Below, one piece after another: positions 3,534 to 22,662 of a DNA stretch of 64,000 nt (its first letter is position 1; every line of letters begins with the position of its first letter). A program made the translations under genes and the position numbers. The notes beneath the pieces were generated by a model. That model made no database searches and was not told where the DNA came from. It saw only the letters and a list, made by a program, of their open reading frames with translations. This DNA comes from Bacillota bacterium (lineage in GTDB: Bacteria > Bacillota > Clostridia > Ch29), in NCBI GenBank assembly GCA_028686075.1, contig JAQUCT010000002.1:67432-131431 (forward strand), in the 5' to 3' direction.

Positions 3534-3553
3534 TCTTTAGACACCCCATAGGT

Positions 3554-4636: not shown

Positions 4637-4654
4637 CTGGGATTCCCCCTCTGT

Positions 4655-5434
4655 TTAGAGCTTAATTAGTATCCTGTATATGCTTTGGGCGGTATTTGTG
4701 AATAAAACGTCCAACACTATTGCAAAAACCGGTATCATTATCATCAGTGTAAACATTCCTATCATTATTTTAAGCGGCATACCCACCATGAACACGTTCA
4801 TCTGGGGCATTGTCCTGGCCAGTATTCCCAGTGCCACATCGGTAAGGAACACAGCTGCCACCACCGGCGCGCTTATCTTAAAACCTATCACAAAGGTGCT
4901 GTGCAGCGTTGAAACGAGTTCCGCCACCGTCTCAGCGGTAACCTGCAGGTGGTGACCTGCGGGCACAATTGTAAAGCTTTCCGCCAGTGCCTTAATAAGC
5001 ATAAGGTGACCGTCCATGGTGATAAACACAATAAGGGTGAATATATACAAAAAGTTGCCCATTATAGGAATCTGGGTATTTGTCTGAGGGTCCAGCACGT
5101 TAACAATTCCAAACCCGGTTTTCATATCTATTATCTGACCGGCAAAATAGATTGCTGTAAAAACCACATAGGTCACAAAGCCGATTATAAGCCCGACCGC
5201 CGCCTCCTTTGCCGCCAGCAATGCAAGCTGTAGAAAACCCGTCTCGGGGCCGGATGAAAGCTCTACCGCAGGCAGCAGTACAATACTTAGCATTAAGGCT
5301 AATCCTACCTTAAAGACCGCCGGTACGTTCCTGCGTCCGAAGATTGGAGTCATCAGGAAAATGGCAGAGCAGCGAACCAGCACCAGCAGAAAAACCTCAA
5401 ATTTTTCAATCAAAAGGACTAAAATGCTTTCCAT
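4655..5434 (-). CDS. fliR: Flagellar export apparatus protein FliR
   Basis: Hydrophobic; FliR-like sequence; operon position. Confidence 0.95.
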   Translation of the reverse strand: MESILVLLIEKFEVFLLVLVRCSAIFLMTPIFGRRNVPAVFKVGLALMLSIVLLPAVELSSGPETGFLQLALLAAKEAAVGLIIGFVTYVVFTAIYFAGQIIDMKTGFGIVNVLDPQTNTQIPIMGNFLYIFTLIVFITMDGHLMLIKALAESFTIVPAGHHLQVTAETVAELVSTLHSTFVIGFKISAPVVAAVFLTDVALGILARTMPQMNVFMVGMPLKIMIGMFTLMIMIPVFAIVLDVLFTNTAQSIYRILIKL

Positions 5435-5443
5435 GGCATTCCC

Positions 5444-5713
5444 CTAAAATACAAACGAATTAATGTTTCCAAACAACCTTGTCGTAAAATCTATAATAAT
5501 ACCTAGCATCCAGGGACCGAATACTATTATAGAAAACAGCACCGCAAGGATCTTGGGTATAAAGGTGAGCGTTGGCTCCTGAATCTGGGTTGTGGCCTGG
5601 AATATGCTTACCAAAAGCCCGACCAAAAGAGCCAGTCCCAATATGGGTGCCGAAATCAGTATTATCGTGTACAGTGCCTGCTGGGCAACATCCAGTACCA
5701 GTCCTTCTCCCAT
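5444..5713 (-). CDS. fliQ: Flagellar export apparatus protein FliQ
   Basis: 89 aa, two TM segments, QATTQIQEPTLTFIPKI motif. Confidence 0.96.
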   Translation of the reverse strand: MGEGLVLDVAQQALYTIILISAPILGLALLVGLLVSIFQATTQIQEPTLTFIPKILAVLFSIIVFGPWMLGIIIDFTTRLFGNINSFVF

Positions 5714-5725
5714 TGATCCTCCCCC

Positions 5726-6499
5726 CTATCTGAACCCCGTTACAAGGGATTGCACAATCAAATTCCATCCGTCCACCATAATAAAAAGAAGTATCTTAAA
5801 GGGCAGTGATACCATAATAGGAGGCAGCATCATCATACCCATTGACATAAGCGTACTGGCCACCACCATATCAATTACCAGGAAGGGTACAAATAATAGA
5901 AAACCCATCTGGAATGCGGTTTTTAATTCGCTTATTATAAAAGCCGGTATAAGGGCCCTGTTTTGAACCCCGTTTACATCCTCCACCCCTTCTCCCCCTG
6001 ATAGGTCGACGAACAATGCAAGGTCTTTTTGCCTAGTCTGCCTCAGCATAAAGGTTCTAAGAGGCTGCATTGCCCTTTCGATGGCCTCCGTAAAATCAAT
6101 TCTCTCCTCCATATAGGGCCTAAAAGCCTGTTCGTTTATATCCGAAATAACCGGGGACATAACAAATAATGTAAGAAATAGGGCCAGTCCTATCAGTACC
6201 TGGTTCGGCGGTGTCTGCTGCGTTGCCAGCGCATTTCTTATAAAGGACAGTACTATTATAATTCTGGTAAAACTGGTGGTCATAATGAGTATAGCCGGTG
6301 CAAGGCTAAGTACCGTAAGCAAAAAGAGTATCTGCAGGCTTAGTGCGACATCCTGGGGCGTTTCCGCCGGTTGCATCTCCAGCCCAATTCTTGGTATAGG
6401 AATCTCCGGTGCGGCCAGGGCAGCGGTTTGCATAACCCCGGCAACCGCCAATAGACTTACCAGTATAATAAATATTTTTCTACCGGTCATCCGTCTCAT
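5726..6499 (-). CDS. fliP: Flagellar export apparatus protein FliP
   Basis: TSFTRIIIVLSFIRNALATQQTPPNQVLIGLALFLTLFVM; MGMMMLPPIMVSLPFKILLF. Confidence 0.97.
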   Translation of the reverse strand: MRRMTGRKIFIILVSLLAVAGVMQTAALAAPEIPIPRIGLEMQPAETPQDVALSLQILFLLTVLSLAPAILIMTTSFTRIIIVLSFIRNALATQQTPPNQVLIGLALFLTLFVMSPVISDINEQAFRPYMEERIDFTEAIERAMQPLRTFMLRQTRQKDLALFVDLSGGEGVEDVNGVQNRALIPAFIISELKTAFQMGFLLFVPFLVIDMVVASTLMSMGMMMLPPIMVSLPFKILLFIMVDGWNLIVQSLVTGFR

Positions 6500-6872
6500 C
6501 CCCGTCGCTCTTTAGTTTGCGGATCAATCCGAAAATCCCCGACCTTCCGCACTTTTGTATTCCATAACCCTTTAGATAGCTTTCAAAGTTGCCCTCTGCC
6601 CGTGTGTCTTCCTCAAAACCGTCCAGTTCCTTTATGAATTCCATTCCTCGATTGGAGCCGGACATAAGCAGATACTCATCCTTGACCTTGACGATAATAA
6701 GGTTTCTGTCGCCGCCCATATAAAGGGTATCTATTATTCTCATGTACCTCCCTGCATTGACCGAAACCCGCTTGCCTACAACCTTTGTGGTATAATATGC
6801 CAACAGTATAATAATTCCAAATATTATTAAGAAGTACAGCACCTTTAAAAAAACCGAAAATAGATCGCCCAT
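6480..6872 (-). CDS. fliO: Flagellar protein FliO/FliZ-like
   Basis: Single N-terminal TM; upstream of and overlapping fliP. Confidence 0.8.
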   Translation of the reverse strand: MGDLFSVFLKVLYFLIIFGIIILLAYYTTKVVGKRVSVNAGRYMRIIDTLYMGGDRNLIIVKVKDEYLLMSGSNRGMEFIKELDGFEEDTRAEGNFESYLKGYGIQKCGRSGIFGLIRKLKSDGDETDDR

Positions 6873-6887
6873 TTACGCACCATCCTA

Positions 6888-7247
6888 TTATATTGCCTTG
6901 CTAACCGCCTCCAGCACCCTTTCGGGCTGGAAGGGTTTTACTATGAAGTCCTTGGCTCCCGCCTGTATAGCTTCTATTACCATTGCCTGCTGCCCCATGG
7001 CTGAACACATTACTATGGTAGCACCGGCATCTACGGCCTTTATCCTTTTAACCGCTTCTATACCGTCCATCTCCGGCATTGTAATATCCATAATAACCAG
7101 ATCCGGTTTCAGTTCCGCGTATTTCTCGACTGCCTTTGTTCCATTTTCCGCCTCCCCCACTATCTGGTACCCGTTTTTCCCGAGGATATCCTTTATCATC
7201 ATCCTCATAAAAGCGGCATCGTCCACTATCAATACTCCCTTAGCCAT
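6888..7247 (-). CDS. cheY: CheY response regulator
   Basis: Single receiver domain: VDDAAFMR, DLVIMDITMPEMDG, KPF. Confidence 0.93.
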   Translation of the reverse strand: MAKGVLIVDDAAFMRMMIKDILGKNGYQIVGEAENGTKAVEKYAELKPDLVIMDITMPEMDGIEAVKRIKAVDAGATIVMCSAMGQQAMVIEAIQAGAKDFIVKPFQPERVLEAVSKAI

Positions 7248-7264
7248 ACGATACTATCCTCCTT

Positions 7265-8380
7265 TTAACGGTCACTTGAAATGCTATCTATCCTTTTAGA
7301 CGGATGAACTATATCCGTAAGCCTAACACCAAAGCTTTCATCAATTACAACTACTTCGCCCTTTGCTATGAATTTGCCGTTTACAAGTAGTTCCACCGGC
7401 TCGCCCGCCAGCTTGTCCAGTTCAACTATTGTACCAACCCCGAACTGCAGAATCTCCCTTATTTGTTTCCTTGTCCTGCCCAGTTCCACCGTAACGTTTA
7501 GGGGCACGTCCAGTATCAGGTTAATGCTTTCTTTTTCGGTGCTAACCGGCACATCTTCAAAGTCACTAAGGCTTACTGGCTGCACCTTTACTTCTTTTTT
7601 GCCCGGGGCTTTCTCTGTTGGTTTGTCCTCCTTCTCCCCTTCATCGTCATCTAAGACTGCCAGAACGTTTTCAACCTCTCTAAGGTCCTCGTCTATCGAA
7701 TACTCCTTACGTTTTGTCTCCTTATCAATTAGGCCCGCCACCATAGACTTGGAAAACTCTATCGGAAGCAGCTGCATTATTTCACTGTCAATAAGAGTTC
7801 CTACCACCATTTTGAAGGAAATCTTTATGAATAGCTGGTTCTTCATAAAGAATTCCATTCCCTTGTAGTCCTGTCCCAGGTTAACAAGCGTTGTCTCCGG
7901 CGGTGAAATATAAATGGGCTTATCAAGCATGGTGGAGAGGGACGTGGACGCGGAGCCTATCATCTGGTTCATTGCTTCGCTCACCGCGCTTATGGTTATG
8001 TCGGTTATCTCCTCCGCGGGACTGCTACCATCGCCTCCCATCATCAGGTCGGCGATAACCCTCGCATCGCCCTCCTTTAAAAGCAGAAGGTTTGTTCCCT
8101 CTATTCCCTCTGTGAACCGTATGTTCACCGCCAGAAAGGGCATGGGATAGTCCTTAGCAATCTGCTCAGCGTTTATTACCTCAACCCTCGGCGTTGTTAT
8201 TGTCACTTTGTTCCTTAAGAGTGCAAACAGCGTTGTGGCTGAGGTTCCCATGCTAATATTACCTATTTCTCCCAGCGCATCTTTCTCCTCCGGTGTTAAA
8301 ACATCCGGTTCCTGTACTGTCGCTTTTTTCAATAAAGCATCTATTTCTTCCTGGGAGAGCATTTCATTCATATTCTTCAT
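7265..8380 (-). CDS. fliY: Flagellar switch phosphatase FliY (FliN/CheC fusion)
   Basis: LSQEEIDALL N-terminus, CheC-like EIGNISMGTSATTL, C-terminal FliN domain. Confidence 0.95.
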   Translation of the reverse strand: MKNMNEMLSQEEIDALLKKATVQEPDVLTPEEKDALGEIGNISMGTSATTLFALLRNKVTITTPRVEVINAEQIAKDYPMPFLAVNIRFTEGIEGTNLLLLKEGDARVIADLMMGGDGSSPAEEITDITISAVSEAMNQMIGSASTSLSTMLDKPIYISPPETTLVNLGQDYKGMEFFMKNQLFIKISFKMVVGTLIDSEIMQLLPIEFSKSMVAGLIDKETKRKEYSIDEDLREVENVLAVLDDDEGEKEDKPTEKAPGKKEVKVQPVSLSDFEDVPVSTEKESINLILDVPLNVTVELGRTRKQIREILQFGVGTIVELDKLAGEPVELLVNGKFIAKGEVVVIDESFGVRLTDIVHPSKRIDSISSDR

Positions 8381-9359
8381 CCCCTTTCCTTACAATATCT
8401 ACAATCTTTACTGCAACTTTATTTTTCCTCAATCCCGGTTTAGCACCAAAAACCAGTTTATTGTCCACATACATATCCAGAGGCCCTTCGCACGCTCTAC
8501 TCAGCCGCAGTACGTCCCCCGGTTGAAGATTGCAGAATTCTTCTACGGTTATTGTGCATTCTCCCAAAACTACCTTTAAAAGCACGCTTGCGTTTTCTAT
8601 CCTTTTTTCCAGCAGTGCCGCATCCCCTTTTCCCCTGTTGTTACCCGAGGATGTAAACCAGAACCTTGTGGATATCTTGTTTACTATGGGTTCCACCGAA
8701 AGGTGCGGGATTGCCAAATTTATCATGCCCTCCGCTTCACCTATTTTCACCCTCATGGTTATTAAAGCTATTATTTCGTTGGGCGACATAATCTGTATAA
8801 ATTGGGAGTTTGTCTCCAGTTTGGCTACCCTGGGAGATATCTCGATTACGTTTCTCCATGGTTCTACCAGCAAACCTACCATTTTATCCATTAGGCTACG
8901 CATTATGCTTTCTTCTATCTCGGTGAAGTTGCGAAGCTTCATGTCACCCTTTCCATAGCCCCCCAATACTCTGTCTATAATCGTGTAAGTGAGGGAAGGG
9001 CTTATCTCCAGGATTATGCTGCCTGAAAGGGGGTTTGCGTCGCACAGGGCCAGTATAGTAGGATTGGACAGCGAATTTGTGAACTCGTAATAAGTAAGCT
9101 GTTCCACCGTGACTAGCTCCACAGTAACAAAACTCCTTAAATACCCCGCCAAAAAGGTGGAGACCAGTCTTGCGTAGTTTTCGTGTATCATTTCCAGAGT
9201 CCTTAACTGGTCCTTTGCAAATTTATTAGGCCGTTTGAAGTCGTATAGCCTGACCTTTCTTTCCGAGGTGTCCTGCACCACTTCCTTTACGTTCAGTTCT
9301 CCGGTACTAAGTGCTTTTAGAAGGTCGTCTATCTCTGTCTGAGTAAGAACATCCGGCAT
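8364..9359 (-). CDS. fliM: Flagellar motor switch protein FliM
   Basis: VLTQTEIDDLLKAL; LSDPTILALCD-like region; ILEISPSLTYTIIDRVLGG. Confidence 0.97.
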   Translation of the reverse strand: MPDVLTQTEIDDLLKALSTGELNVKEVVQDTSERKVRLYDFKRPNKFAKDQLRTLEMIHENYARLVSTFLAGYLRSFVTVELVTVEQLTYYEFTNSLSNPTILALCDANPLSGSIILEISPSLTYTIIDRVLGGYGKGDMKLRNFTEIEESIMRSLMDKMVGLLVEPWRNVIEISPRVAKLETNSQFIQIMSPNEIIALITMRVKIGEAEGMINLAIPHLSVEPIVNKISTRFWFTSSGNNRGKGDAALLEKRIENASVLLKVVLGECTITVEEFCNLQPGDVLRLSRACEGPLDMYVDNKLVFGAKPGLRKNKVAVKIVDIVRKGDEEYE

Positions 9360-9372
9360 TGCTTACCCCCCT

Positions 9373-9807
9373 CTATTGAGTGATTAAATCGTCTATGTAA
9401 ATATTAATAATACCCTCTTTGCCGTACAGGGAACGATAGCAGTCCAGTATTTCCCGTTCCAGCGATATCTTGCCCTGGGTACCGGTTACATCCTCGGCGG
9501 TCTTGTCCCTTATTATATTCAAAACCCTGCTCCTCGCCTCCGGATCCCTCTCCTCTAACACTTGCAGAAGTTTTTTGTCCTTTAAAGTTTCTATATAATA
9601 GCTAAATATAATAATACTTCTTGCTCCCTTCAGATTGGTCTGGAATTTACTGTTTCCTGGCACTATCACCGTTTTTACTTCCTTGTTTGAATTAGCCTCT
9701 CCGACGTTTATTATGCCGCCTCTTGCCGCGACGAGTGCCGCCGCAAAAATTAACACCCCGGTTACTACAAGAGCCAAAACAAATATAAACAGTTTCTTTC
9801 CATTCAT
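9373..9807 (-). CDS. fliL: Flagellar basal body-associated protein FliL
   Basis: N-terminal TM plus FliL-like C-terminus (RDKTAEDVTGTQGKISLEREIL). Confidence 0.88.
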   Translation of the reverse strand: MNGKKLFIFVLALVVTGVLIFAAALVAARGGIINVGEANSNKEVKTVIVPGNSKFQTNLKGARSIIIFSYYIETLKDKKLLQVLEERDPEARSRVLNIIRDKTAEDVTGTQGKISLEREILDCYRSLYGKEGIINIYIDDLITQ

Positions 9808-10562
9808 AGCGTCACCTCGTTACTATTTGGTTCGTTTAACTCAAAAGTATTTTTTAGTATAACAACGTCCACCCTTCTGTTCTTCTGTCGGTTTTCAGCG
9901 GTATTGTTATCGGCTATGGGGTGATATTCCCCGTATCCGGCGGCAGATAGCCTGACCGGTGTGATACCAACATCCTCAATTAAGAACTTCACCACGTTTA
10001 CTGCCCTGGCGGTGGACAGCTCCCAGTTGGAGGGATACAGTAGCGATCTCATCGGAACGTTGTCGGTATGCCCCTCCACCCTTATGGACCGTTCGTTTTG
10101 TTTGAGTATCTCGCCAATGCTTATCACTATTGTCTCCGCATCCTTCCTTATAAGGGCTTTACCAGAATCGAACAGTGCCTGGTCCTTGAACCTTATAAGT
10201 AGTCCCCTCTCTTCAACTCCAAGCACAACCGTTGCCTCCAGGTCGTTTTCCTTTATATACTCGTCAAGCTGTCTGTAAAGCCATTCCATACTCTCGGCCT
10301 CCAGCTGTTCCTGCAGCAGGCGATCACTCTGCAGCGCCTGGCTGATATACTGGTCTTCGTCTATTGTTTTCCCGGCGTCCAAAACCCCGAGTGAGCCCTG
10401 GAATGACCTTATTATTGCTTCAAATTTCTTTGCGTCTATTACAGAAAACGAGAATAGTAAAACAAAAAAACATAGAAGCAGCGTTACAAGGTCGCTGTAA
10501 GTAGTCATCCAACTGTTGGTATCGGAGGTCCCGTTTTCTCTCCTATTCCGTCGCGCTCGCAT
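9804..10562 (-). CDS. motB: Flagellar motor protein MotB
   Basis: SWMTTYSDLVTLLLCFFVLLFSFS; OmpA-like VEGHTDNVPM...LSAAGYGEYHPI. Confidence 0.96.
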   Translation of the reverse strand: MRARRNRRENGTSDTNSWMTTYSDLVTLLLCFFVLLFSFSVIDAKKFEAIIRSFQGSLGVLDAGKTIDEDQYISQALQSDRLLQEQLEAESMEWLYRQLDEYIKENDLEATVVLGVEERGLLIRFKDQALFDSGKALIRKDAETIVISIGEILKQNERSIRVEGHTDNVPMRSLLYPSNWELSTARAVNVVKFLIEDVGITPVRLSAAGYGEYHPIADNNTAENRQKNRRVDVVILKNTFELNEPNSNEVTL

Positions 10563-11355
10563 ATTCTCCTTCCCCGCTTTCTTTCTCTTTTTCCTTCTTC
10601 GCCTTTTCCCTTAGCTTCGGCGACAGGAAGGCCACAAGTTTTTCTTCTATTATTCTCGGGTTTTCCCCAGCCTGTATCGAAAGCATGCCTTCAATTAGAA
10701 TTTCTTTGAGCAGTATTTCTTCCTTGCTTCTAAGTTTAAGCTTGCGAGCCATGGGCAGGAAGAAAAGGTTGGCAAGGACAACACCGTAGAAGGTGGTAAC
10801 CAGGGCCACCGCCATATTGGGTCCGACGGAGGACGGGTCATCCAAAGTTCTCAGCATATTTATAAGACCTATAAGGGTTCCTATCATACCAAAGGCCGGT
10901 GCTAAGGCACCCATAGTTTCAAACAGGCTCTGCCCGGTGCTGTGCCTTTCCTCAACGAATGACAGCTCTGTCTCAAGGATATTTCGTACTAGCTCCGGGT
11001 CGGTACCGTCTACAATAAGAAGAATTCCCTTTTTGAGGAAGTCGTCGTCAAGCTGCATGGCTGCTTCCTCCAATGCAAGAAGCCCCTCTTTCCTTGCGAC
11101 GTTTGCCAGTTCTATTATCCTGTCAATGGCCTCGCCTGCATTCAGCTCCTTACCGAAGAATATATGTTTTACGCTACGCAGCGTTTCCAAAAACTTTGGT
11201 AGCGGAAAACTTATCAATGTAGCCGCAATAGTACCCCCAAGGGTTATCATAATGGATGCCCGGTCGTAATAGGTACCCAGGGTTCCATTTATCATAATAC
11301 CAATTATCAGGAAGACAACCCCCAGTATCATCCCCGCAACGGTTGAAATATCCAT
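10543..11355 (-). CDS. motA: Flagellar motor protein MotA
   Basis: GTIAATLISFPLPKF; PAFGMIGTLIGLINMLR; overlaps motB. Confidence 0.96.
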   Translation of the reverse strand: MDISTVAGMILGVVFLIIGIMINGTLGTYYDRASIMITLGGTIAATLISFPLPKFLETLRSVKHIFFGKELNAGEAIDRIIELANVARKEGLLALEEAAMQLDDDFLKKGILLIVDGTDPELVRNILETELSFVEERHSTGQSLFETMGALAPAFGMIGTLIGLINMLRTLDDPSSVGPNMAVALVTTFYGVVLANLFFLPMARKLKLRSKEEILLKEILIEGMLSIQAGENPRIIEEKLVAFLSPKLREKAKKEKEKESGEGEYASATE

Positions 11356-11371
11356 AACTCCACCTCATTCC

Positions 11372-11563
11372 CTATTGTCCAAACCCGTTGATTCTTTTTT
11401 TGTACTCAATAACCCTTTCTATCACCTGGTCAATCTTTTCACTTACTACAACCTTTTTACCGGATATAAGAGTAATAACTGTATCCGGCGTCTCCTCCGC
11501 AAATTCGATCTGCTCGGCGTTTACCACAAATTCTTTGCCGTTTAACCTTGTTATTTTTATCAT
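11372..11563 (-). CDS. flbD: FlbD family flagellar protein
   Basis: MIKITRLNGKEFVVNAEQIEFAEETPDTVITLISGKKVVVSEK; internal Met preferred over ORF-track start. Confidence 0.88.
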   Translation of the reverse strand: MIKITRLNGKEFVVNAEQIEFAEETPDTVITLISGKKVVVSEKIDQVIERVIEYKKRINGFGQ

Positions 11564-11629
11564 TATAAACCCCCACTTTTTTTCCGGCGGGGACAGTACC
11601 GGTAACGGCAATACCCCCGCCATTATTAA

Positions 11630-12898
11630 TTATCTCTTGAGGTTCACAAGTTCCTGAAGCATCTCATCGGAGGTGGTGATTATTCTTGAGTTTGCCTGGA
11701 AGCCTCTCTGGGTTATAATCATATCTGTAAACTCCTTTGAAATATCAACATTGGACATCTCCAGGGAACTGGGGTTAATGGTGCCCCTACCGTGGTCTCC
11801 CGCAATTCCTATAGAGGGCTGACCCGAGTTGGGCGTCTGAATAAATAAGTTACTGCCCACCTTCTGCAGCCCCGACGGGTTGTTGAAGGCCGCTAGCGCA
11901 ATCCTTGCAATCACCTTTTCCTGACCGTTTGAGAAAATCCCGGTGGCTACTCCGGAGGCATCGAAGTTAAAGTCTTCAAGGCTGCCCAGAGCATAGCCGT
12001 CCACTTCCAGCGGGTCTACCCCGGATTCCGCGGCGTACTGGTGGACGTCGGCTATGTTCACCGTTATTGGGTCGGGTATTAGATTCGGTTCCACCTGTAT
12101 TTCAAAAGTCCCGTCCGAGGTCAGCTTCCCGTCCACAAAGGTTAGGGTTGGGGCTGCACCCAATGATACGCTTTCAACAGTTCCATCGGGCCTTGTAACC
12201 GCCACTGCGCCGGCCACCGCCGGATTAGCGGGATCGGACAGGCGTTCCTGAATTTCCCACGTGTTATCGTTAACTTTTACCAGCTCAAAGCTTAACTTGT
12301 TTTTCCTGCCCAGCTCGTCGTATATCTCGGTTTCGAAGGGTACTACCCCGCCGGTTGGCAAATCCGCATTCAGGTTGCCTACCATCTTTATGGCACTGGT
12401 TGCCTTGGGCTGCATAGCCATACCCTCGGGTATCTGTATGGTGCCCGGGGAAACGGTGGTGTCTATATTCCCATTGGCATCCGCCATCCAGCCCAGTACC
12501 CTGAAGCCGTTACCGTTTACGATGTTGCCCTCGGTATCCCTTATGAAATTCCCGGCCCTGGTAAATTTAGGCGCACCCCCGTCGGATACTATGAAGAAAC
12601 CATTTCCTTCTATGGCAAGGTCAAGTGGATAACCGGTAGATTCGATACTTCCCCTTGTGTGTAGGGTATCTATTGACGCCAGGCTTATCCCAAGGCCTAT
12701 CTGCTGGGGATTGGTGCCTCCCCTGCCGCCTTCGGGTGCTCCTGCTCCCCTTAGGGTTTCGCTGAATATTTCCTGGAATGTTGCACGGGATGACTTATAT
12801 CCCACTGTATTTACATTGGAAATGTTGTTGCCTATTACATCCATTCTGGATTGGTGAGACCTCAGGCCTGAAACACCTGAGAATAGTGAACGCATCAT
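11630..12898 (-). CDS. flgE: Flagellar hook protein FlgE
   Basis: MRSLFSGVSGLRSHQSRMDVIGNNISNVNTVGYKSSRATFQEIF; C-terminal MSNVDISKEFTDMIITQRGFQANSRIITTSDEMLQELVNLKR. Confidence 0.95.
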   Translation of the reverse strand: MMRSLFSGVSGLRSHQSRMDVIGNNISNVNTVGYKSSRATFQEIFSETLRGAGAPEGGRGGTNPQQIGLGISLASIDTLHTRGSIESTGYPLDLAIEGNGFFIVSDGGAPKFTRAGNFIRDTEGNIVNGNGFRVLGWMADANGNIDTTVSPGTIQIPEGMAMQPKATSAIKMVGNLNADLPTGGVVPFETEIYDELGRKNKLSFELVKVNDNTWEIQERLSDPANPAVAGAVAVTRPDGTVESVSLGAAPTLTFVDGKLTSDGTFEIQVEPNLIPDPITVNIADVHQYAAESGVDPLEVDGYALGSLEDFNFDASGVATGIFSNGQEKVIARIALAAFNNPSGLQKVGSNLFIQTPNSGQPSIGIAGDHGRGTINPSSLEMSNVDISKEFTDMIITQRGFQANSRIITTSDEMLQELVNLKR

Positions 12899-12981
12899 AA
12901 TGTATGACCTCCTTTACATCGAAGCTGTAATGCTTTCCTTCCGTCGTTCGGGAAAGCTGTGCCTCCTTTTTGAAGGTCCGG

Positions 12982-13365
12982 CTACACAATTACAGCTCCG
13001 TCTATATTTGTAAATACCTTATCCTTTAAAGCGTCGCATTTTGTTGCGGTAACCACGGTGGTGCTTTTAACGTTTATCACAAAGGCGGTATCGTCCATCA
13101 GCACAAGGGTATCCCGCACTCCTTTTTGTCTTGCCCTTTCTACTGCCATACTAAGTCGCTGCACCTGTCCCTTGTCCAGCATAATATCACGGGCCGTCAT
13201 CCTCACCTGGGCGTGCTTTGACAAGGATATGCCGGTCTGGCCTTTTACCGCTTCGAATACTTCTTTGAAACTTTTATCCGGCTGTACCGTATGTTTCTTT
13301 GCCTGTCCACCGGGACGGTTTACCGCGGGTATCGGTCTGTTGTCAATGGGTTTTGTTCCACCCAT
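12982..13365 (-). CDS. Flagellar operon protein (TIGR02530-like)
   Basis: FSKHAQVRMTARDIML-like segment (ISLSKHAQVRMTARDIMLDKGQVQRLSMAVERARQKGVRDTLVLMDDTAFVINVKSTTVVTA); lies between flgD and flgE. Confidence 0.82.
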   Translation of the reverse strand: MGGTKPIDNRPIPAVNRPGGQAKKHTVQPDKSFKEVFEAVKGQTGISLSKHAQVRMTARDIMLDKGQVQRLSMAVERARQKGVRDTLVLMDDTAFVINVKSTTVVTATKCDALKDKVFTNIDGAVIV

Positions 13366-13398
13366 AGGCTTTCGTACCTCCCTATTTTACGGGCTATT

Positions 13399-13899
13399 TT
13401 AATGTCCTATCTCAAACTGCGTTGCCTCGTCCATGTAAAAGCTCTTCCCGTCCACTTCCATTCGCACCCTTCCATCGCTGAAGGATACCCTCTGTACCGT
13501 GCCTGATATCGTTTGCTGTTGCCCGTCGGTTTCCACAACGGCGGTAATTCCTTTACCCAGCAGATTCATTGCCTGGAAGTTCTGCTGCATAATAAGGTTG
13601 TTGTTTATGCTTGCGAGGACCTTGAAATTATCGTACAACCCTCCGTCCGTCACTTCAGCAAGATTAGCAAAACCCTCTTCAAAGCTTTTGTTTAAGTTTT
13701 GCATCTGCTCCAGGCTGCTGAACTGGGCCATCTGTGCCAGAAATTCCTTGTCATTCACCGGGTTTAGCGGGTCCTGATTCCTTAATTGGTTGACCAAAAG
13801 ATGCAAAAATGCATCCTTACCCATTACATCTTTTTCACGGACTGCGCTGCTATATGCATCCCCGTTCCCGTCTGACGACGTTGCTGCGTTTACCTGCAT
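13399..13899 (-). CDS. flgD: Flagellar hook cap protein FlgD
   Basis: [39 protein letters not shown]. Confidence 0.95.
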
Positions 13900-13910
13900 T
13901 TTTTCACCTC

Positions 13911-15137
13911 CTATGCCAGCAGTTCTATGGTACCTTCGCCTCTCCAGATTGCGTATTCTACATTTTCCTCCTCCTGATACCGGTTTAAGCTATGTCTGCC
14001 GTGGTGGGACTGCCTGTTTTGGTCGAAAAACTGCTGTTGGTTGTATCCACCGCCCACATCCACATGGAACTTGCCCACCGGTATGCCCTGCCCTTCAAGG
14101 TTCTCCTGCAATTTCAGTATGTTTGCCTGAATAATGCCCTTCGTTTCATCGCTTTGGACAGTAATTCTGCCGTTTAATACGCCGTCTGTAATTGTTATAC
14201 TGACCTTTAGTCTGCCAAGGCTCTCGGGCTTTAACTGTATGCTTACCTCCGACCTCCTCTTGCCAAGCATTACCTTCATCTTGTCTGCTACCTGGTTTAC
14301 TATATCGGAGGCAGCCGTATCAGGGGTATTCTTCCGAGAATTTAGTCCCTGGCTGCGATAGGCCTGACCTGTCCCCGCCAATGGCTGTGCCTGTGCATCC
14401 CTTTGGTTTGCCGCCGGCGGTTTTTCCGCAGTCTCCCGTTCTGTTGCCTCAAGTTTCGGCCCGTCCCTGTATTGTCCCTGGTTTTTTGACGTATCTCCTG
14501 TATTGGTTGGTTTTAAACCAAAGGCTTCCTCTTTGTTTGCCTCAGGGTTGTTATCCTCTGCTACTATGTTTCCAATTACGTCGTCCCTATCTTTTGCGGT
14601 ACCCCCGGCGGGTTTTAGCCCGGAGCTGCTATCGGGCGGTTCTTTGTTTCCGACGGATAAGTGCCGCTCGTCCTCCCCTTGGCCATCCCGAATTCCCACG
14701 GTTTTTCCATCGTCGGTCTTAAAACTATCCGGGAGAATATCCACCGATATTTCTCCGGCGTCCGGCAGGGCCCTTCCTTCACTCACAAGAGTGTTTTGGC
14801 CGGCTCCGTTATACTCCGCCACCGGACCTAAAGGGTTTACCTCTTCCGCATCTTCGTACTCAGTAAGTATAAAACCTTCCTGTAACGGCAGTCCGATACC
14901 GGCCATGCAAGAAACGGTAGGTTCCGGCTGTTTTTCTTCTTTTTGGGGCTGTCCTTCCAATGCCCCTTCTTCCTTACTGCAGCCTAAGGGGTCGCTTATG
15001 AGGCTTTTCAAAAGGCTCAGGAATTCCAAACCCACAGTCTCGAATCTTCCTCCCGTGGCTTCGGTTTTACCTCCCGTTGCAGACATCTGCGTTTCGGGCG
15101 GTGTGTCCACCATCGGTGTAACTGACGATATATCCAT
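13911..15137 (-). CDS. fliK: Flagellar hook-length control protein FliK
   Basis: Low-complexity N-terminus; C-terminal Flg_hook domain [53 protein letters not shown]. Confidence 0.87.
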
Positions 15138-15203
15138 TTTTCCACCTCCCTCCTTAATTCCTTTTTATGTATACGGGTTTATAAAACCCCGTGATACCTA
15201 TTG

Positions 15204-15794
15204 TTATTCGGCCGACATAGTCTCCATAAGCCTAGCGGCCTTTCTAGGGTCCATAGCGGCCAGTATTTCCGAACACTTTTGTTCCTTCATGTTTCTAAGA
15301 ATATTCATCACCAAAGCGTTATCGGATATATTGTCGAGTATTTTCACCGCATCGGAGGCATCCATTTTCTCATAATAGACCACCAGTTCCTCAATGTTCT
15401 CAACCCTTATATCCAGCCGTTTTTGCAGGTCCTCAACGGCGGTTTTTTGCTCCTCCAGTTCCTCTTCCTTTGCCTTGAGTTGAAGCTCCCAGGAGGCCAG
15501 GCTGTTTGCCAGCTCGTCCAGATTTGTCCTCTGCTCATCAAGAAACTTTTTTGTGTTTGCCAGCTCCTCCCTTTCAATCTGCTGCGGGGTTTTTTGCTCC
15601 TCCACCGTTTTGAAAAAGCTGCCTGCTACCGGGAGGGAAGCCAGAAGGTTGTTGGCCTTAACGCCCATTCCGGCCAGGTTAAAGGCTATGCAAAACCCCA
15701 GGACCAGTGCCAGTATCACTACAACCGGCACTATTACAATCCACCTTTTCCTGTTCCTTTTTGGGGCAGCCCCTTCCTTTTTAGCCTTGGCCAT
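15204..15794 (-). CDS. MotE-like/MgtE N-terminal-domain flagellar protein
   Basis: TM plus coiled coil plus YEKMDASDAVKILDNISDNALVMNILRNMKEQKCSEILAAMDPRKAARLMETM; between fliJ and fliK. Confidence 0.78.
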   Translation of the reverse strand: MAKAKKEGAAPKRNRKRWIVIVPVVVILALVLGFCIAFNLAGMGVKANNLLASLPVAGSFFKTVEEQKTPQQIEREELANTKKFLDEQRTNLDELANSLASWELQLKAKEEELEEQKTAVEDLQKRLDIRVENIEELVVYYEKMDASDAVKILDNISDNALVMNILRNMKEQKCSEILAAMDPRKAARLMETMSAE

Positions 15795-15803
15795 TGTTAC
15801 CTC

Positions 15804-16253
15804 CTATAGGTTTACTTTTTTATTATTCACAAGGTCATCAAGTTGTTTTTCCTGTTCCTTTGACAAATGGTAGGCAAACCTCTGATAGTGCCTTGCCCTT
15901 AATCTGTCCAGCATTTCCTTTTCTTTTGATGCTCCGGTCAAATCGTTGCGGCATTCTTCCACCATTTTCTCCATTTCCGACACATTTTCCGTCTGCTTAT
16001 CTATGAAGGTTTTGAGCCGGTCCATGTATCTGTTGCACTGAGCCAGATACTCCACCCTGACGCCCTCGCTGCATTTTTCGTCCATAGTGCCGGCCATAGT
16101 ATTCTTTTCTGCCTGCAGGCCGTTTAAGGTATCCCTTTCCTCGTCCAGCTGTACTCTGTATCGGGCCAGTTCCTCCGACTTTAGATTCTTAACGTGCTCT
16201 TTGTAATCCAAAACCCTCTGTAGCCTGAAACTGAAAATTTCATTCATCGGCAA
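15804..16253 (-). CDS. fliJ: Flagellar export chaperone FliJ
   Basis: FSFRLQRVLDYKEHVKNLKSEELA; coiled coil; downstream of fliI. Confidence 0.85.
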   Translation of the reverse strand: MPMNEIFSFRLQRVLDYKEHVKNLKSEELARYRVQLDEERDTLNGLQAEKNTMAGTMDEKCSEGVRVEYLAQCNRYMDRLKTFIDKQTENVSEMEKMVEECRNDLTGASKEKEMLDRLRARHYQRFAYHLSKEQEKQLDDLVNNKKVNL

Positions 16254-16259
16254 CGCTCC

Positions 16260-17573
16260 TTAGTCTAGCAATTTCATTAAACGGTCAACAGTGTCTCTAA
16301 AGCTTACCTTTTCATGGATACCCTGCTTCAGAAAGTCATTTATCGTATCTATTCTATCCAGCGCATAGTCGATATTCGGACTGGTTCCCCGGTTATACGC
16401 TCCTATGCTTATTAGGTCCTCAGCGTCCTTATATACCGCTGCAATATCCTTTATCCTCTGAGCACATCTTAAGTGGTCCTCGTCAATAATATCTGGCATT
16501 ACCCTGCTTATGCTCTGAAGTATGTCCACCGCCGGGTAATGATTTTTGTTAGCAAGGTTGCGGGATAGTACAATATGCCCGTCCAGTATTCCCCTTGCGG
16601 AATCAGCTATGGGCTCGTTCATATCGTCTCCGTCCACCAATACCGCATACAGTGCTGTTATTGTTCCCTTGGCCGACGTTCCCGTCCTTTCAAGCAGTTT
16701 GGGAAGGGACGCAAAAACCGAAGGGGTGTAGCCCCGGGTAACGGGCGGTTCTCCAATGGCCAGGCCCACTTCCCGCTGGGCGAGGGCAAACCGTGTTAGA
16801 GAATCCATCATAAGCATTACGTCCTTGCCCAAGAACCTGAAAAACTCTGCTATGGCGGTAACAAGCTGTGCGCTCTTAAGTCTAACAAGAGCCGGTTGGT
16901 CCGAAGTAGCCACAACCACCACCGACCTTCTAAGCCCCTCTTCCCCAAGGTCATTCTCTATAAACTCCCTTACTTCCCTACCTCTCTCGCCGATAAGGCC
17001 TATAACATTTATATCGGCTGAAGTATTCCGGGCAATCATACCCAAAAGGGTGCTTTTACCAACTCCGCTTCCTGAAAAAATTCCAATCCTCTGCCCCTTG
17101 CCGCAGGTAAGAAAACCGTCCACCGATTTAATACCCAGTTCCAGGACTTCGGTTATCCTCCTTCTTTCAAGGGGGTTCGGGGGTGGATTTGTCACCGGAA
17201 AAAGGCTGCTGAACTCAAGCGACCCAAGCCCGTCAATGGGTACGCCAAGGCCGTTCAGTACCCTGCCCAGCATTCCTTCCCCCACCGGCACCTTAAGCGT
17301 GCTGCCGGTAGCTATTGCGGCACTTCCTGGTCCTATGCCCTCCATGTCCCCCAGCGGCATCAACAGCACTGTATTGTCCTTAAAGCCCACCACCTCTGCC
17401 TTTATCGGTTTTTTGTCCCTGGCAGAAAACACCTCACACACTTCGCCAATATTGACCGACGGCCCTACGGCTTCTATAGTAAGCCCTATCACCTTACTGA
17501 CCCTGCCGCTGTATTTAAGGGTATCCGTTTCCTTTAAAAGTCTGCTGTATCTTTCAAGTACAATACTACTCAT
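16260..17573 (-). CDS. fliI: Flagellar protein export ATPase FliI
   Basis: GIFSGSGVGKSTLLGMIARNTSADINVIGLIGERGREVREFIE; start at MSSIVLERYS preferred. Confidence 0.97.
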   Translation of the reverse strand: MSSIVLERYSRLLKETDTLKYSGRVSKVIGLTIEAVGPSVNIGEVCEVFSARDKKPIKAEVVGFKDNTVLLMPLGDMEGIGPGSAAIATGSTLKVPVGEGMLGRVLNGLGVPIDGLGSLEFSSLFPVTNPPPNPLERRRITEVLELGIKSVDGFLTCGKGQRIGIFSGSGVGKSTLLGMIARNTSADINVIGLIGERGREVREFIENDLGEEGLRRSVVVVATSDQPALVRLKSAQLVTAIAEFFRFLGKDVMLMMDSLTRFALAQREVGLAIGEPPVTRGYTPSVFASLPKLLERTGTSAKGTITALYAVLVDGDDMNEPIADSARGILDGHIVLSRNLANKNHYPAVDILQSISRVMPDIIDEDHLRCAQRIKDIAAVYKDAEDLISIGAYNRGTSPNIDYALDRIDTINDFLKQGIHEKVSFRDTVDRLMKLLD

Positions 17574-18321
17574 AGTTAAGCAGCTCCCTGAAGGCATGCT
17601 CTATCTTGTCCAACTGTACTTCCACGCTGGAGTTGATGCTTCCCGCATCGGTTTCCAGCACACAGCTTCCCTGGGGCAGTGCCTCCTCTACAACAATATC
17701 CAATTGGGTTACCCCATCCATTCCGGATAAAAGCCTTTGCTTTGACAGTTCCACAATATCATAATCATCGGGGGATACCTTCATTGTTACCCGGCCCGAA
17801 AATGTACATTTCTCCAATGCTCTGCTGACAAGACCGAGAACCGCCTCCCGGTCTGTTTTAATCTGTTCCCCCAGCACCTTCCTGGATATCTCCAATACAA
17901 TCCTTATTATTTCTGCCTCGGCTTCTTTTACCATGCGTTCCTTGGCCTCAAGGGCCCTTTGTTTTATTTCAATTGCTTCCTCTATCATCTGATTGGCCGT
18001 ATCAAGCCCCTGCTGTCGTCCCTTATCCCTGCCTTCTTCCAAGCCCCTCTGCCGGCCATCATCGTATCCTCTTTTATAACCCTCCTGCTGTGCACTTTTG
18101 CGTATATCCTCGCTTTCTTGCATTGTCCTTTCTATTATTTCCGCCGCCCTTACACGGGCGTTTTCTAATATACTTTCCGTTTCATCCTTTTTGCTATCTT
18201 TATGCCGGGGGCCCTCTGCCGGCACCTCCCGTAAGACTTCCTTCTTAAGAAACACCGTTTCCGTTTCTATTTCGAGGGGATCGCCTACTACAATGGAATC
18301 TGATTTATAAAGTCTAGACAA
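17566..18321 (-). CDS. fliH: Flagellar assembly protein FliH
   Basis: Charged coiled coil plus FliH/YscL-type C-terminus (LVSRALEKCTFSGRVTMKVSPDDYDIV). Confidence 0.9.
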   Translation of the reverse strand: MSRLYKSDSIVVGDPLEIETETVFLKKEVLREVPAEGPRHKDSKKDETESILENARVRAAEIIERTMQESEDIRKSAQQEGYKRGYDDGRQRGLEEGRDKGRQQGLDTANQMIEEAIEIKQRALEAKERMVKEAEAEIIRIVLEISRKVLGEQIKTDREAVLGLVSRALEKCTFSGRVTMKVSPDDYDIVELSKQRLLSGMDGVTQLDIVVEEALPQGSCVLETDAGSINSSVEVQLDKIEHAFRELLNYE

Positions 18322-19327
18322 TTATTTCGTCCCCTCCTCCCCTCGAGATTACTATTTCACCGGCGTCCTCCAGCTTTCTAATGGTATTTACAATCTTTTG
18401 CTGCGCTTCTTCGACGTCCCGCAGCCTAACCGGACCCATAAACTGCATGTCCTCGGTTATCATTTCCGCCAGGCGTTTGGATATATTGCTATAAATCACG
18501 CCGGCAACCTCGTCGTTGGCTCCCTTAAGAGCAACAGCAAGCACATCGTTTTCCACTTCCCGCAGGAACCGCTGGATGGACCTGTTGTCGAGGGTAATGA
18601 TGTCTTCGAATACAAACATCCTTTTCTTTATTTCCTCGGCCAGCTCGGTATCCTCCACCTCAAGGGTTTCCATTATGTTCTTCTCAGTACCCCGGTCAAC
18701 CGAGTTTAGTATATTTACAATGGTTTGTACACCCCCCGCCGATGTATAGTCATGGGTAACCAGTGACGATATCTGTTTTTCCAGCACCCTTTCCACCTGC
18801 TTTATTATCTCCGGCGAAGTTCTGTCCATAATGGCTATCCTTTTAGCAACCTCCGCCTGCTTTTCCGGCGGGAGTGCTGCCAAAATGGCGGCAGACTGTT
18901 GGGCGTTCAGGTACGCCAGTATCAAGGATATGGTCTGGGGATGCTCGTTCTGTATAAAATTGAGTATCTGGTTCGGGTCAGCTTTGCGTACAAAGTCAAA
19001 GGGTCTGACCTGCAGATAGGAGGTAAGTCTGTTTACTATGTCAAGGGCCTTCTGGCCCCCCAGGGCCTTTTCCAGTACCTCCTTGGCATACTCAATACCG
19101 CCTTCGGAGATATACTCCTGGGCAACGCATATCTGGTAGAACTCCTCTATTACCTTGCTCTTTATCTCGGGAGTAACCTTTCTCATATTGGCGATTTCCA
19201 GTGTGAGTTCTTCAATTTCCTCATCGTTTAAGTGTTTGAACAACTTCGCCGAATTTTCCGGACCCAGGGCAATAAGCAGTATTGCCGCCTTTTCCCTTCC
19301 GGTAAGATTCCCTTTGCTTCTGACCAT
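18314..19327 (-). CDS. fliG: Flagellar motor switch protein FliG
   Basis: LTGREKAAILLIALGPENSAKLFKHLNDEEIEELTLEIANM; start at MVRSKGNL (preceded by GAGGTGAGATTT SD) preferred over the longer ORF. Confidence 0.95.
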   Translation of the reverse strand: MVRSKGNLTGREKAAILLIALGPENSAKLFKHLNDEEIEELTLEIANMRKVTPEIKSKVIEEFYQICVAQEYISEGGIEYAKEVLEKALGGQKALDIVNRLTSYLQVRPFDFVRKADPNQILNFIQNEHPQTISLILAYLNAQQSAAILAALPPEKQAEVAKRIAIMDRTSPEIIKQVERVLEKQISSLVTHDYTSAGGVQTIVNILNSVDRGTEKNIMETLEVEDTELAEEIKKRMFVFEDIITLDNRSIQRFLREVENDVLAVALKGANDEVAGVIYSNISKRLAEMITEDMQFMGPVRLRDVEEAQQKIVNTIRKLEDAGEIVISRGGGDEIIV

Positions 19328-19344
19328 AAATCTCACCTCATTTC

Positions 19345-19460
19345 CCTCACAGGAAACCCCTGCCTTTAGGCACCTAACAAACGCTGTACCTGACTTAACA
19401 TTTAAACGGGTCACAGATGGGCTTTCACAAGCCCCCGGCTTTAGCCGTGGGGTCTATGAC
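19345..19460 (+). mobile_element. Candidate IS200/IS605 (TnpB omega-RNA/right-end-like) relic
   Basis: Stacked hairpins incl. ACCCCTGCCTTTAGGCACC, GGGCTTTCACAAGCCC and CCCCCGGCTTTAGCCGTGGGG in an otherwise compact operon; no tnpA/tnpB ORF. Confidence 0.5.
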
Positions 19461-21017
19461 CTACTCTTCTTTAAGCCAGGTTTTTAGAAGCTGTGCCGCG
19501 GTCTCGGGTTTTTTACCAATAAACCTCTCCACCTGCTTTCGCGTTCCCGACTGGTCCAGGGTAACGTTTATCTCTTCTATTTCATCAATCACTTCGGCAC
19601 CATTCTGGGAGACCAGCACTTCTTCCTCGGCCGTCCTTCGTCGGCGTAGTACCATAATGGTACCTATTATTCCGGCAACCAGCAAAGCACCTATTGCTGC
19701 CAAATATGTATAAAGCTTAACCTGTTCCATGTGCTGCCTATCCTCGAAGCCCTGGGCTATTTCCGCCGCCAGACTGGTATCAAAGGGCATTGACTGTATC
19801 TGAACCAACTGGTTATCTATACCCGCTGCCGCAGCAACAATATCCGCTATATTATCCCTGTCCGGCTGGGTTAGGTCCTGTGCAAGGGCCGTACTGTTTA
19901 TAAGCACCGCTACCGTAAGGCTCTTAACCTGTCCTTGGGCCTTCACTATCTCTTCCTTAATCTGGTTAAGCTCATAGTTAACCGTCCGGCTTACATTATC
20001 GTATTTGGAATCGCCGGTTTCTACCTCTGCGTAGCTTGTTATATCCTCTATATTGCTGTCGGTTCCGGGTATACCCCCTGCGCCGGCGTTCTGGGCGTGT
20101 TCCTCCAGCTCCTGGATGCTTCTTATAAGGCCGCTATCCTCTCCCGGTATGGGCGGCTCAAACTTGACTGTGTTGGTTATCTGACTGTCAAAGTTAAGCT
20201 TTAAGTTCACTCTCACATCCACGTTGTTTTTGCCGTAGGCGGTTTCCAGAAACTCCTTTATGCTCTTTTGCATCCGCATCTGGGTGCCATGCTCTATTTC
20301 AAGCTGACTAAGCAGTCTTCCCTGCTCGGTGTCCGACTGAGACGACAGTTCCCTGCCCGTCTGGTCTATTATTGATATATTGTCTTTTGTAAGGCCCTTT
20401 ACGCTCTTTGATACAAACTGCAGTATCCCATCTATCCGGTTTTGGTCAAGTTCCGCCCCGGGTTTAAGCTTAATAAGTATCCCGGCACTGGACTGGTGGT
20501 CGTCTCCGCTCACCGCAAACACGCTGTCCCCAGGTATAAAAAGGTTAACCTGGGAGTACTCTACTCCCTCTATGGTCTCTATGGCCTGGGCTATGGCATA
20601 TTCCTGGCCGAGACGTATTCTTTCCCTTCTCTCGAGATCGGTGGTGCCAAGCCTTGTATTGTCAAGGGCTTCCACCAGGCTGAAACCTTTCCGGGGAAGG
20701 CCCTCGGTGGCCAGTTGCATTCGCAGCTTGTTAACTTCCTTCTTGGGGACCAGTATGCTTGAAGTAGTTTCGTCCAGTTCCCACTCAACCTTGTACTCGT
20801 CAAGTTTTTCGGTTATAGCCCCCGCGTCCTCCATATCAAGCTGGTTGTATAGGGGAACCAATTCCGGCCTTGATGTAAAAAAAACCAGTAGGGCTATACT
20901 GACAGCAAAGATTCCTGCACTAATTCCTAGCTTAAGCTTCTGGTTTCTGGTCCTTGCCTGCCAGAATTCATCAAGTTGGTTTTTTATTCTTTTCAGGGTC
21001 TCTTCCAAAACGGTCAC
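19461..21017 (-). CDS. fliF: Flagellar M-ring protein FliF
   Basis: YNQLDMEDAGAITEKLDEYKVEWELDETTSSILVPKKEVNKLRMQLATEGLP. Confidence 0.97.
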   Translation of the reverse strand: MTVLEETLKRIKNQLDEFWQARTRNQKLKLGISAGIFAVSIALLVFFTSRPELVPLYNQLDMEDAGAITEKLDEYKVEWELDETTSSILVPKKEVNKLRMQLATEGLPRKGFSLVEALDNTRLGTTDLERRERIRLGQEYAIAQAIETIEGVEYSQVNLFIPGDSVFAVSGDDHQSSAGILIKLKPGAELDQNRIDGILQFVSKSVKGLTKDNISIIDQTGRELSSQSDTEQGRLLSQLEIEHGTQMRMQKSIKEFLETAYGKNNVDVRVNLKLNFDSQITNTVKFEPPIPGEDSGLIRSIQELEEHAQNAGAGGIPGTDSNIEDITSYAEVETGDSKYDNVSRTVNYELNQIKEEIVKAQGQVKSLTVAVLINSTALAQDLTQPDRDNIADIVAAAAGIDNQLVQIQSMPFDTSLAAEIAQGFEDRQHMEQVKLYTYLAAIGALLVAGIIGTIMVLRRRRTAEEEVLVSQNGAEVIDEIEEINVTLDQSGTRKQVERFIGKKPETAAQLLKTWLKEE

Positions 21018-21040
21018 CCCATTCTTTTACTGTCGTTTTT

Positions 21041-21325
21041 TTACACCTGCATCCTCATAATTTCCTGGTACGCTTCTATTATCTTGTTTCTTACCTGAAG
21101 CGTAAACTGCAGTGCAATTTCCGCTTTTTCGGAATCGATCATTACCTGATGAAGGTTCTGAATATCTCCCGTTGCCAGGCCTATTGATGAGATGTCCGCC
21201 TGTTTTTGCAGCCCGTCAAGCCGGTCCAGTGCCCCGGTAAGATGATCGGCAAAGCCCTGTTGGTCCGTTTTTTTGTTTCCAATGGGGTTTATCGCTTTGA
21301 TAGGATTTGTGCCTTCTATTCTCAC
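21041..21325 (-). CDS. fliE: Flagellar hook-basal body complex protein FliE
   Basis: C-terminal EIALQFTLQVRNKIIEAYQEIMRMQV. Confidence 0.95.
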   Translation of the reverse strand: MRIEGTNPIKAINPIGNKKTDQQGFADHLTGALDRLDGLQKQADISSIGLATGDIQNLHQVMIDSEKAEIALQFTLQVRNKIIEAYQEIMRMQV

Positions 21326-21339
21326 CTTTTACTACCTCC

Positions 21340-21789
21340 TTACGCTCTTCCTATTTCCAGTGCTCTTTGAGCCATACCCTTGGCTGCGTTAAGAGCTGTT
21401 ACATTGGCCTCGTATGCCCTTGTAGCCGAAATCATGTTTACCATCTCTATTACCGTGTCCACATTGGGCATGAGTACATAGCCGTCCTCATCGGCGTCGG
21501 GATGTCCAGGGTCGTAGGTCCTTTTAAAGGAAGACCTGTCATCTTCTATCCCCTTTACCTTGACCCCTCCCTCTTTAAGAAATAGTCTTCGGCTTTCCTT
21601 CGAAAGAAATTGCGAGAAGATTTTATGCCTGCAGTTTTCCTCGAATACTACCACCTGTCTTCTGTAGGGGAGCCCGTTTTCAGTCCTGGTGGTGTTTACA
21701 TTAGCTATGTTTTTTGCTATTACATCCATTCGTAGTCTCTGGGCAGTAAGCCCTGTAGCACTTATATTTACGGCATCGAAGATACCCAT
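21340..21789 (-). CDS. flgC: Flagellar basal-body rod protein FlgC
   Basis: INISATGLTAQRLRMDVIAKNIANVNTTRTENGLPYRRQVVVFEE-type sequence. Confidence 0.96.
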   Translation of the reverse strand: MGIFDAVNISATGLTAQRLRMDVIAKNIANVNTTRTENGLPYRRQVVVFEENCRHKIFSQFLSKESRRLFLKEGGVKVKGIEDDRSSFKRTYDPGHPDADEDGYVLMPNVDTVIEMVNMISATRAYEANVTALNAAKGMAQRALEIGRA

Positions 21790-21793
21790 AAGA

Positions 21794-22201
21794 TTACCTC
21801 CTGCCTTCGTTTATTACGGCCTTTAGCCTTGACAGCTTTGCGGATAACTGGTCCACCAATGCCTGATACATAATAGTGTTGTTTGCGAGGCTTGCGGTTT
21901 GAACGTCAATGTCGACGTTGTTTCCGTCCATCCTGGTGCTTGTGTTCCTGTCCCTTACAATCCGCGGGTTTACCCTCTCAAGACTGTCGCCGCCTATTGG
22001 AAAATGTTTCGGGTTGGTTGTGTGGGTAGTTATGTTTCTTGACTTAACAGCGTCCTTCAAAAGGTCCTCGAATTCCACCCTGTAAGCCTTATAGTTTGGA
22101 GTATCCACGTTGGCTATATTGTTAGAAATCACCTTGTGCCTTATCCAGGAAGCATCCAGGGCTTTTTGTAGTACAGTCATCATATGGTTTTCATTCCGCA
22201 T
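21794..22201 (-). CDS. flgB: Flagellar basal-body rod protein FlgB
   Basis: LQKALDASWIRHKVISNNIANVDTPNYKAYRVEFEDLL; GGAGGTGAAAGAAATG SD/start. Confidence 0.95.
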   Translation of the reverse strand: MRNENHMMTVLQKALDASWIRHKVISNNIANVDTPNYKAYRVEFEDLLKDAVKSRNITTHTTNPKHFPIGGDSLERVNPRIVRDRNTSTRMDGNNVDIDVQTASLANNTIMYQALVDQLSAKLSRLKAVINEGRR

Positions 22202-22360
22202 TTCTTTCACCTCCGGGTTTTTTATCAACCCATAATAAGTAAACATTCTCTTATTTCATCATAATCCTTCATGTTTATCTAAAATTACCCTCTTTTTCTA
22301 TTTTTCAATGTTTATTTCCGCATTTTACCTAAAAGAAGAGTTCTTTCGATGCCGGTTTTT

Positions 22361-22397
22361 TAAAAAAAAATCCGTTGCCCGGAAGCCGGCAACGGGT
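22361..22397 (-). terminator. Intrinsic terminator (expression platform) between riboswitch and flgB
   Basis: Minus strand: CCGTTGCCGGCTTCCGGGCAACGG followed by ATTTTTTTTTA. Confidence 0.85.
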
Positions 22398-22417
22398 ATT
22401 AACGCCGCTTTCATTTA

Positions 22418-22518
22418 AGCAGCTTATCCGGCAACCCGGCTGCCGTAGCATCAGTAATGCCTTAGGCCCGTGGCTTTGCGTCCCCACCTTTTGATGAGTT
22501 TGCCTTTATCAAACTTTG
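22418..22518 (-). ncRNA. Cyclic di-GMP-I (GEMM-I) riboswitch aptamer
   Basis: Minus strand AUAAAGGCAAACUCAUCAAAAGGUGGGGACGCAAAGCCACGGGCCUAAGGCAUUACUGAUGCUACGGCAGCCGGGUUGCCGG: GGCAAAC..GACGCAAAGCC..GGCCUAAGGC..GGCAGCCGGGUUGCC hallmarks of GEMM-I. Confidence 0.9.
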
Positions 22519-22662
22519 ATATATTTTAGCATATACTTCTATATTACTTGCCTTTTTCCTCCTTTTTCGTACTAAATCTTTTTATGGTTTCATTATTCTT
22601 CTATTACATTTTTCGACGCTGCTATCTGTTATCTGAGAACCGCAGGAACCGTCAGACTGGTT

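Follow-up and report, generated by a model that had tools for sequence, protein, structure and literature searches.

A conserved class I c-di-GMP riboswitch in the flgB leader of an uncultured Clostridia lineage and its predicted role as OFF switch for transcription of the flagellar operon

The window analyzed here, a stretch of DNA of 64,000 nucleotides, carries on its minus strand a long flagellar and chemotaxis operon, which reaches within the window from flgB to flhF (409..22201) as judged from gene annotation, gap lengths and a terminator scan. The first gene is flgB (21794..22201, minus strand; TIGR01396). Its start had originally been placed at the first ATG of the open reading frame, 22246, and is replaced here by 22201, since a ribosome binding site GGAGGTG precedes the ATG at this position and the relatives start there, too. 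The gene order on the minus strand is flgB, flgC, fliE, fliF, fliG, fliH, fliI, fliJ, a gene for an MgtE_N protein, fliK, flgD, a gene for a “Flagellar_put” protein, flgE, flbD, motA, motB, fliL, fliM, fliY, cheY, fliO, fliP, fliQ, fliR, flhB, flhA, and flhF. Past the window, on the same contig, follow flhG, a gene for a PilZ/YcgR protein, cheB, cheA, cheW, cheC, cheD, and the gene of a SigD-like sigma factor. Behind the latter lies the gene of a FapA-like protein, named so by its resemblance to another FapA match. Gaps between operon genes within the window do not exceed 83 nt, and no intrinsic terminator was found by scanning the intergenic gaps before the rpsB-tsf region. We infer that the genes from flgB to sigD, which span ~29 kb, form one operon with a single transcript. 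The idea that a leader element gates more than 22 kb of genes therefore holds with respect to the operon scale, but the number was an underestimate.

Scanning the whole window against Rfam gave a single match, the c-di-GMP-I (GEMM-I) family RF01051, at 22514-22427 of the minus strand, flanked upstream by HslU and downstream by FlgB. The match reaches 86.2 bits (E=1.3e-15), compared to a gathering score of 35 bits, and the alignment is full-length, covering model positions 1-87. The GEMM-I hallmarks recognized in the flgB leader by the original prediction, and the covariance-model search with RF01051 that it had set beforehand, are both borne out by this result, and its coordinates for the whole element, 22361-22518, were right. 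The presence of a complete riboswitch aptamer at 22427..22514 is thus practically certain. Within this class, a G at the equivalent of G20 of Vc2 goes along with the c-di-GMP rather than the c-GAMP type. In the alignment of the GGCAAA and UUGCC strands, the aptamer has G at the G20 equivalent and C at the C92 equivalent, whereby we take these bases to be the equivalent ones from knowledge of the Vc2 family together with PMC9262584. Since genes for one GGDEF-only and one GGDEF-EAL protein are present in the genome, c-di-GMP is plausible as ligand. Moreover, a PilZ protein gene lies within the operon and the genome harbors four further c-di-GMP-I elements. The aptamer is predicted to bind c-di-GMP.

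In this class, a GAAA tetraloop on P2 docks into a receptor in P3. The P2 loop of the present aptamer is AAAA instead, which may weaken the aptamer, and a receptor-like CCUAAG/UACGG is present. The same loop was also compared among relatives. Five of the six flgB aptamers of the family (22427-22514 as well as L011, L012, L014, and L017) have AAAA or UAAA instead of GAAA, compared to only three of 23 other aptamers in the same genomes (Fisher p=0.0025, with relatedness ignored). A lower affinity at flgB is a possible meaning of these altered loops.

Upstream of the aptamer, a putative extended -10 element TGCTAAAAT can be read at 22523..22531 (minus strand), and G002 and G003 have a TATGnTAnAAT-like element at the matching position; a good -35 is not recognizable together with the element at 22523..22531. 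Judged from this promoter, transcription is expected to start near 22516, so that ~315 nt of leader lie between the predicted start of transcription and the ATG of flgB. Downstream of the aptamer, the spacer hairpin GCUGCUU/AAGCGGC that had been noted before indeed folds (22404..22423, minus strand; -9.8 kcal/mol). It is followed by an intrinsic terminator hairpin CCGUUGCCGGCUUCCGGGCAACGG, which two independent scans found at 22395-22372 of the minus strand and which folds at -16.0 kcal/mol (22397-22370), with the tail AUUUUUUUUU and a U9 tract at 22362..22370 on the same strand. The terminator with its U9 tail past the spacer was thus correctly recognized, and the terminated transcript is predicted to have a length of ~155 nt. 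Also correct was the observation that the 3' segment of the aptamer is nearly duplicated in the 5' arm of the terminator: the 8-mer GUUGCCGG is present at 22435-22428, at the 3' end of the aptamer, and again at 22393-22386, within the 5' arm of the terminator, and it includes the P1 3' strand GUUGCCG (22429..22435, minus strand), identified from sequence and the Rfam alignment.

Between the terminator and flgB, a conserved block CATGAAGGATTATGATGAA is located at 22255..22273 on the minus strand, with the consensus CATGAAGGA(T/A)TATGATGAA. A search for zero-mismatch copies found it once per genome, at flgB, in five of the six family genomes. A leader peptide was considered and rejected, because in G002 the frame stops prematurely and there is a non-synonymous change among the few that occur. 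Interpretation as a common regulon motif was likewise dismissed, since none of the six family genomes contains a second exact copy. The GGA of the block sits in a possible small loop, and the genome has CsrA.

With respect to the expression platform, P1 and the terminator form together without clash (-51.0 kcal/mol), and the terminator overlaps no aptamer strand. Folding revealed three competitors of the terminator, all of which are built with aptamer strands. The strongest is the A-T helix, an 11-bp duplex between the aptamer 3' segment CGGCAG/CGGGU and the terminator 5' arm ACCCGUUGCCG, which is more stable (-19.2 kcal/mol) than the terminator hairpin itself (-16.0 kcal/mol) and in this leader is better than hairpins with shuffled base pairs (p=0.011). 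The segment reaches from the P3 3' strand to the start of the P1 3' strand (22434..22445, minus strand) and is the predicted antiterminator strand A. In the A-H pairing, the P1 3' strand GUUGCCGG joins the terminator 3' arm CCGGGCAAC with -13.8 kcal/mol, and the P3 5' strand pairs with the terminator 5' arm with -11.4 kcal/mol. Since aptamer and terminator can coexist and the competitors use aptamer strands, a class I c-di-GMP riboswitch acting as transcriptional OFF switch of the flagellar operon is predicted, to which we assign a probability of about 0.9. The OFF polarity proposed originally is supported by these structures and by analogy.

According to this OFF-switch model, RNA polymerase would start near 22516 and make the aptamer first. 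Bound c-di-GMP would then lock P1 and P3 and thereby leave the 5' arm of the terminator available to its 3' arm, and the resulting hairpin would end transcription at ~155 nt. In the ligand-free RNA, the terminator 5' arm would be captured by the aptamer 3' segment, or less strongly by the P3 5' strand, or alternatively the P1 3' strand would capture the terminator 3' arm. This capture would have to last long enough for the polymerase to clear the U-tract, and the ~29-kb operon with its fla, che and sigD genes would be transcribed. In computed ensembles of the apo RNA just prior to synthesis of the terminator 3' arm, folds that sequester the 5' arm are favored over those with P1 by 7-9 kcal/mol. 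For the full-length RNA at equilibrium, however, the terminator wins with or without ligand, and a thermodynamic proof of switching therefore fails. Thermodynamics leave the polarity unproved, and read-through must be kinetic.

Which strands form the antiterminator is uncertain. The pairing between the P1 3' strand and the terminator 3' arm, as originally suggested, is possible in energetic terms, and it is more even over the six family leaders than A-T, as it beats most shuffled hairpins in all of them (p=0.050 in this leader, and 0.091, 0.056, 0.094, 0.028, and 0.141 in the others), including that of G004 with its differing terminator. However, the computed ensembles of the apo RNA leave it unpopulated at most lengths, and only in G001 does it reach 0.36. 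Furthermore, A-H must wait for the 3' arm and then compete with a tight local hairpin, whereas A-T can be established sooner, exceeds A-H in this leader by 5 kcal/mol, and corresponds to the layout known from Cd1 of Clostridioides difficile (PMC9262584). It is rather unlikely that the riboswitch, real as it is, uses A-H for antitermination.

The other two alternatives concern the regulation itself. GEMM-I ON switches, in which the ligand disfavors the terminator, are known, e.g., from Geobacter pilM (PMC9262584), and the C85 riboswitch of the same genome has a terminator overlapping P1, which is an ON layout. At flgB, in contrast, the terminator overlaps neither P1 nor any other aptamer strand and coexists with the aptamer, and flagella are usually OFF at high c-di-GMP. 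ON polarity was rejected for the lack of overlap, and it is very unlikely that c-di-GMP turns this operon ON. A constitutive attenuator, or a switch that is bypassed by, for example, a second promoter or a protein site at 22273-22255, would leave only a small effect of c-di-GMP. The single-copy conservation of this 19-nt block at flgB in five of six genomes would fit, as would the dominance of the terminator at equilibrium and the class I element Bc1 of Bacillus thuringiensis, which is reported to be unresponsive in vivo (PMC11218506). However, no convincing promoter hexamers were found in the block, and an aptamer that is kept over four genera implies a response to its ligand, which makes this explanation very unlikely.

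In each of the six genomes of the family, which represent four genera, a c-di-GMP-I element separates hslU from flgB; an order-level search yielded no genomes beyond the same six. All six family leaders have a terminator 18-68 nt past the aptamer. The terminator sequence differs in G004, while the four alignable leaders share the stem, apart from several G-U changes and one pair in which both sides have changed. In these four leaders 95% of cells are paired, compared to 22-54% when the stem is slid. Covariation of the terminator stem was not above that of column shuffles, for which four sequences are too few. In a sample of the class, FlgB was over the cut-off in 39 of 99 genomes, and in six of the 99 a riboswitch lies directly ahead of flgB, four belonging to the family plus G067 and G098. 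Furthermore, a riboswitch precedes flgB on the named contigs L054, L080, and L044, and in G034 (L118) and G072 (L119) a c-di-GMP-I element separates fliE from fliF within the flagellar operon. The arrangement is thus vertically kept in the family and recurs elsewhere, whereas most Clostridia are without it. In the distant flgB leaders L054 and L080, pairing likewise occurs between the 3' segment of the aptamer and the 5' arm of the terminator (p=0.006 in either leader), which suggests the same antiterminator logic realized with other sequences. The flgB leaders of L044 (2785-2858) and L116 (G067) have a helix extending the base of the aptamer (ACUCA/UGAGU and AACUUUUU/AAAAAGUU, respectively), followed at once by a U-tract, so that the aptamer itself may serve as terminator stem here. 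In L117 (G098), flgB seems to be interrupted by a change of frame and an in-frame TGA, so that the gene may be broken or wrongly assembled.

Among the other c-di-GMP-I elements of the genome, that on contig C85 (L005/L009; 16277-16183, minus strand) has a terminator GCCGCAACA...UGUGUGCGGU (-11.3 kcal/mol) that overlaps the P1 3' strand, and it precedes the gene of a protein that looks secreted and has a cellulose-binding CBM_2 domain. Another one, on contig C83 (L004/L008), lies without a terminator ahead of a gene for a FapA-type protein (flagellar assembly protein A), and in G002 and G003 proteins resembling the latter also follow c-di-GMP-I elements. It is tempting, although less likely than not, to think of one aptamer class with opposite polarity in one genome, OFF at the flagellar operon and ON at the CBM2 gene of C85, with the altered P2 tetraloops of the family's flgB aptamers raising the threshold for shut-off. 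If true, two class I switches would let one signal exchange swimming for surface attachment. The ON-type element of C85, the altered P2 loops at flgB and the 19-nt block past the terminator are worth a further look.

The closest known system is Cd1 (Cdi1_3) of Clostridioides difficile (PMC3649979, PMC6200980, PMC9262584). There, repression by c-di-GMP via the riboswitch in the flgB leader was shown in vivo and in vitro, the flgB operon of 23 kb includes sigD and the terminated RNA has ~160 nt (PMC6200980, PMC3649979, PMC11477304). For Cd1, a kinetic OFF switch has been worked out, in which an antiterminator made of strands A and T rearranges with time into the terminator (PMC9262584). Both systems have a class I aptamer in the flgB leader, a terminator giving an RNA of ~155-160 nt (here predicted), a possible pairing between the 3' strand of the aptamer and the terminator 5' arm, and a long fla operon including sigD. 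In contrast, the leader is shorter here (315 nt instead of 496), the conserved 19-nt block past the terminator and the AAAA P2 loop are particular to the present system, and the function has been measured in C. difficile and is predicted here. An invertible flagellar switch like that of C. difficile with its 21-bp inverted repeats (PMC5386303) was not seen in 22150-22662, where only short imperfect repeats occur. Against the OFF reading, Cdi1_1, another class I switch of C. difficile, acts oppositely in vivo (PMC6200980, PMC3649979). The ON switch of Geobacter metallireducens pilM (GEMM-Ib) is similar in aptamer architecture and transcriptional control, but its terminator includes aptamer strand A and its ligand is c-GAMP, whereas the flgB leader has a separate terminator and a G at the G20 equivalent. 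Bc1 of B. thuringiensis (PMC11218506) likewise combines a class I aptamer with subsequent intrinsic termination, but has two terminators and controls mcpE, whereas here one terminator lies ahead of the flagellar operon. The riboswitch described here is real, well conserved and ordinary in kind. This kind of system is already established, and the current understanding is unchanged. It extends the C. difficile arrangement, a riboswitch gating the early flagellar operon together with its sigma factor, to an uncultured lineage of Clostridia, and while many other Clostridia are without this arrangement, the vertically kept leaders can be used for comparing expression platforms.
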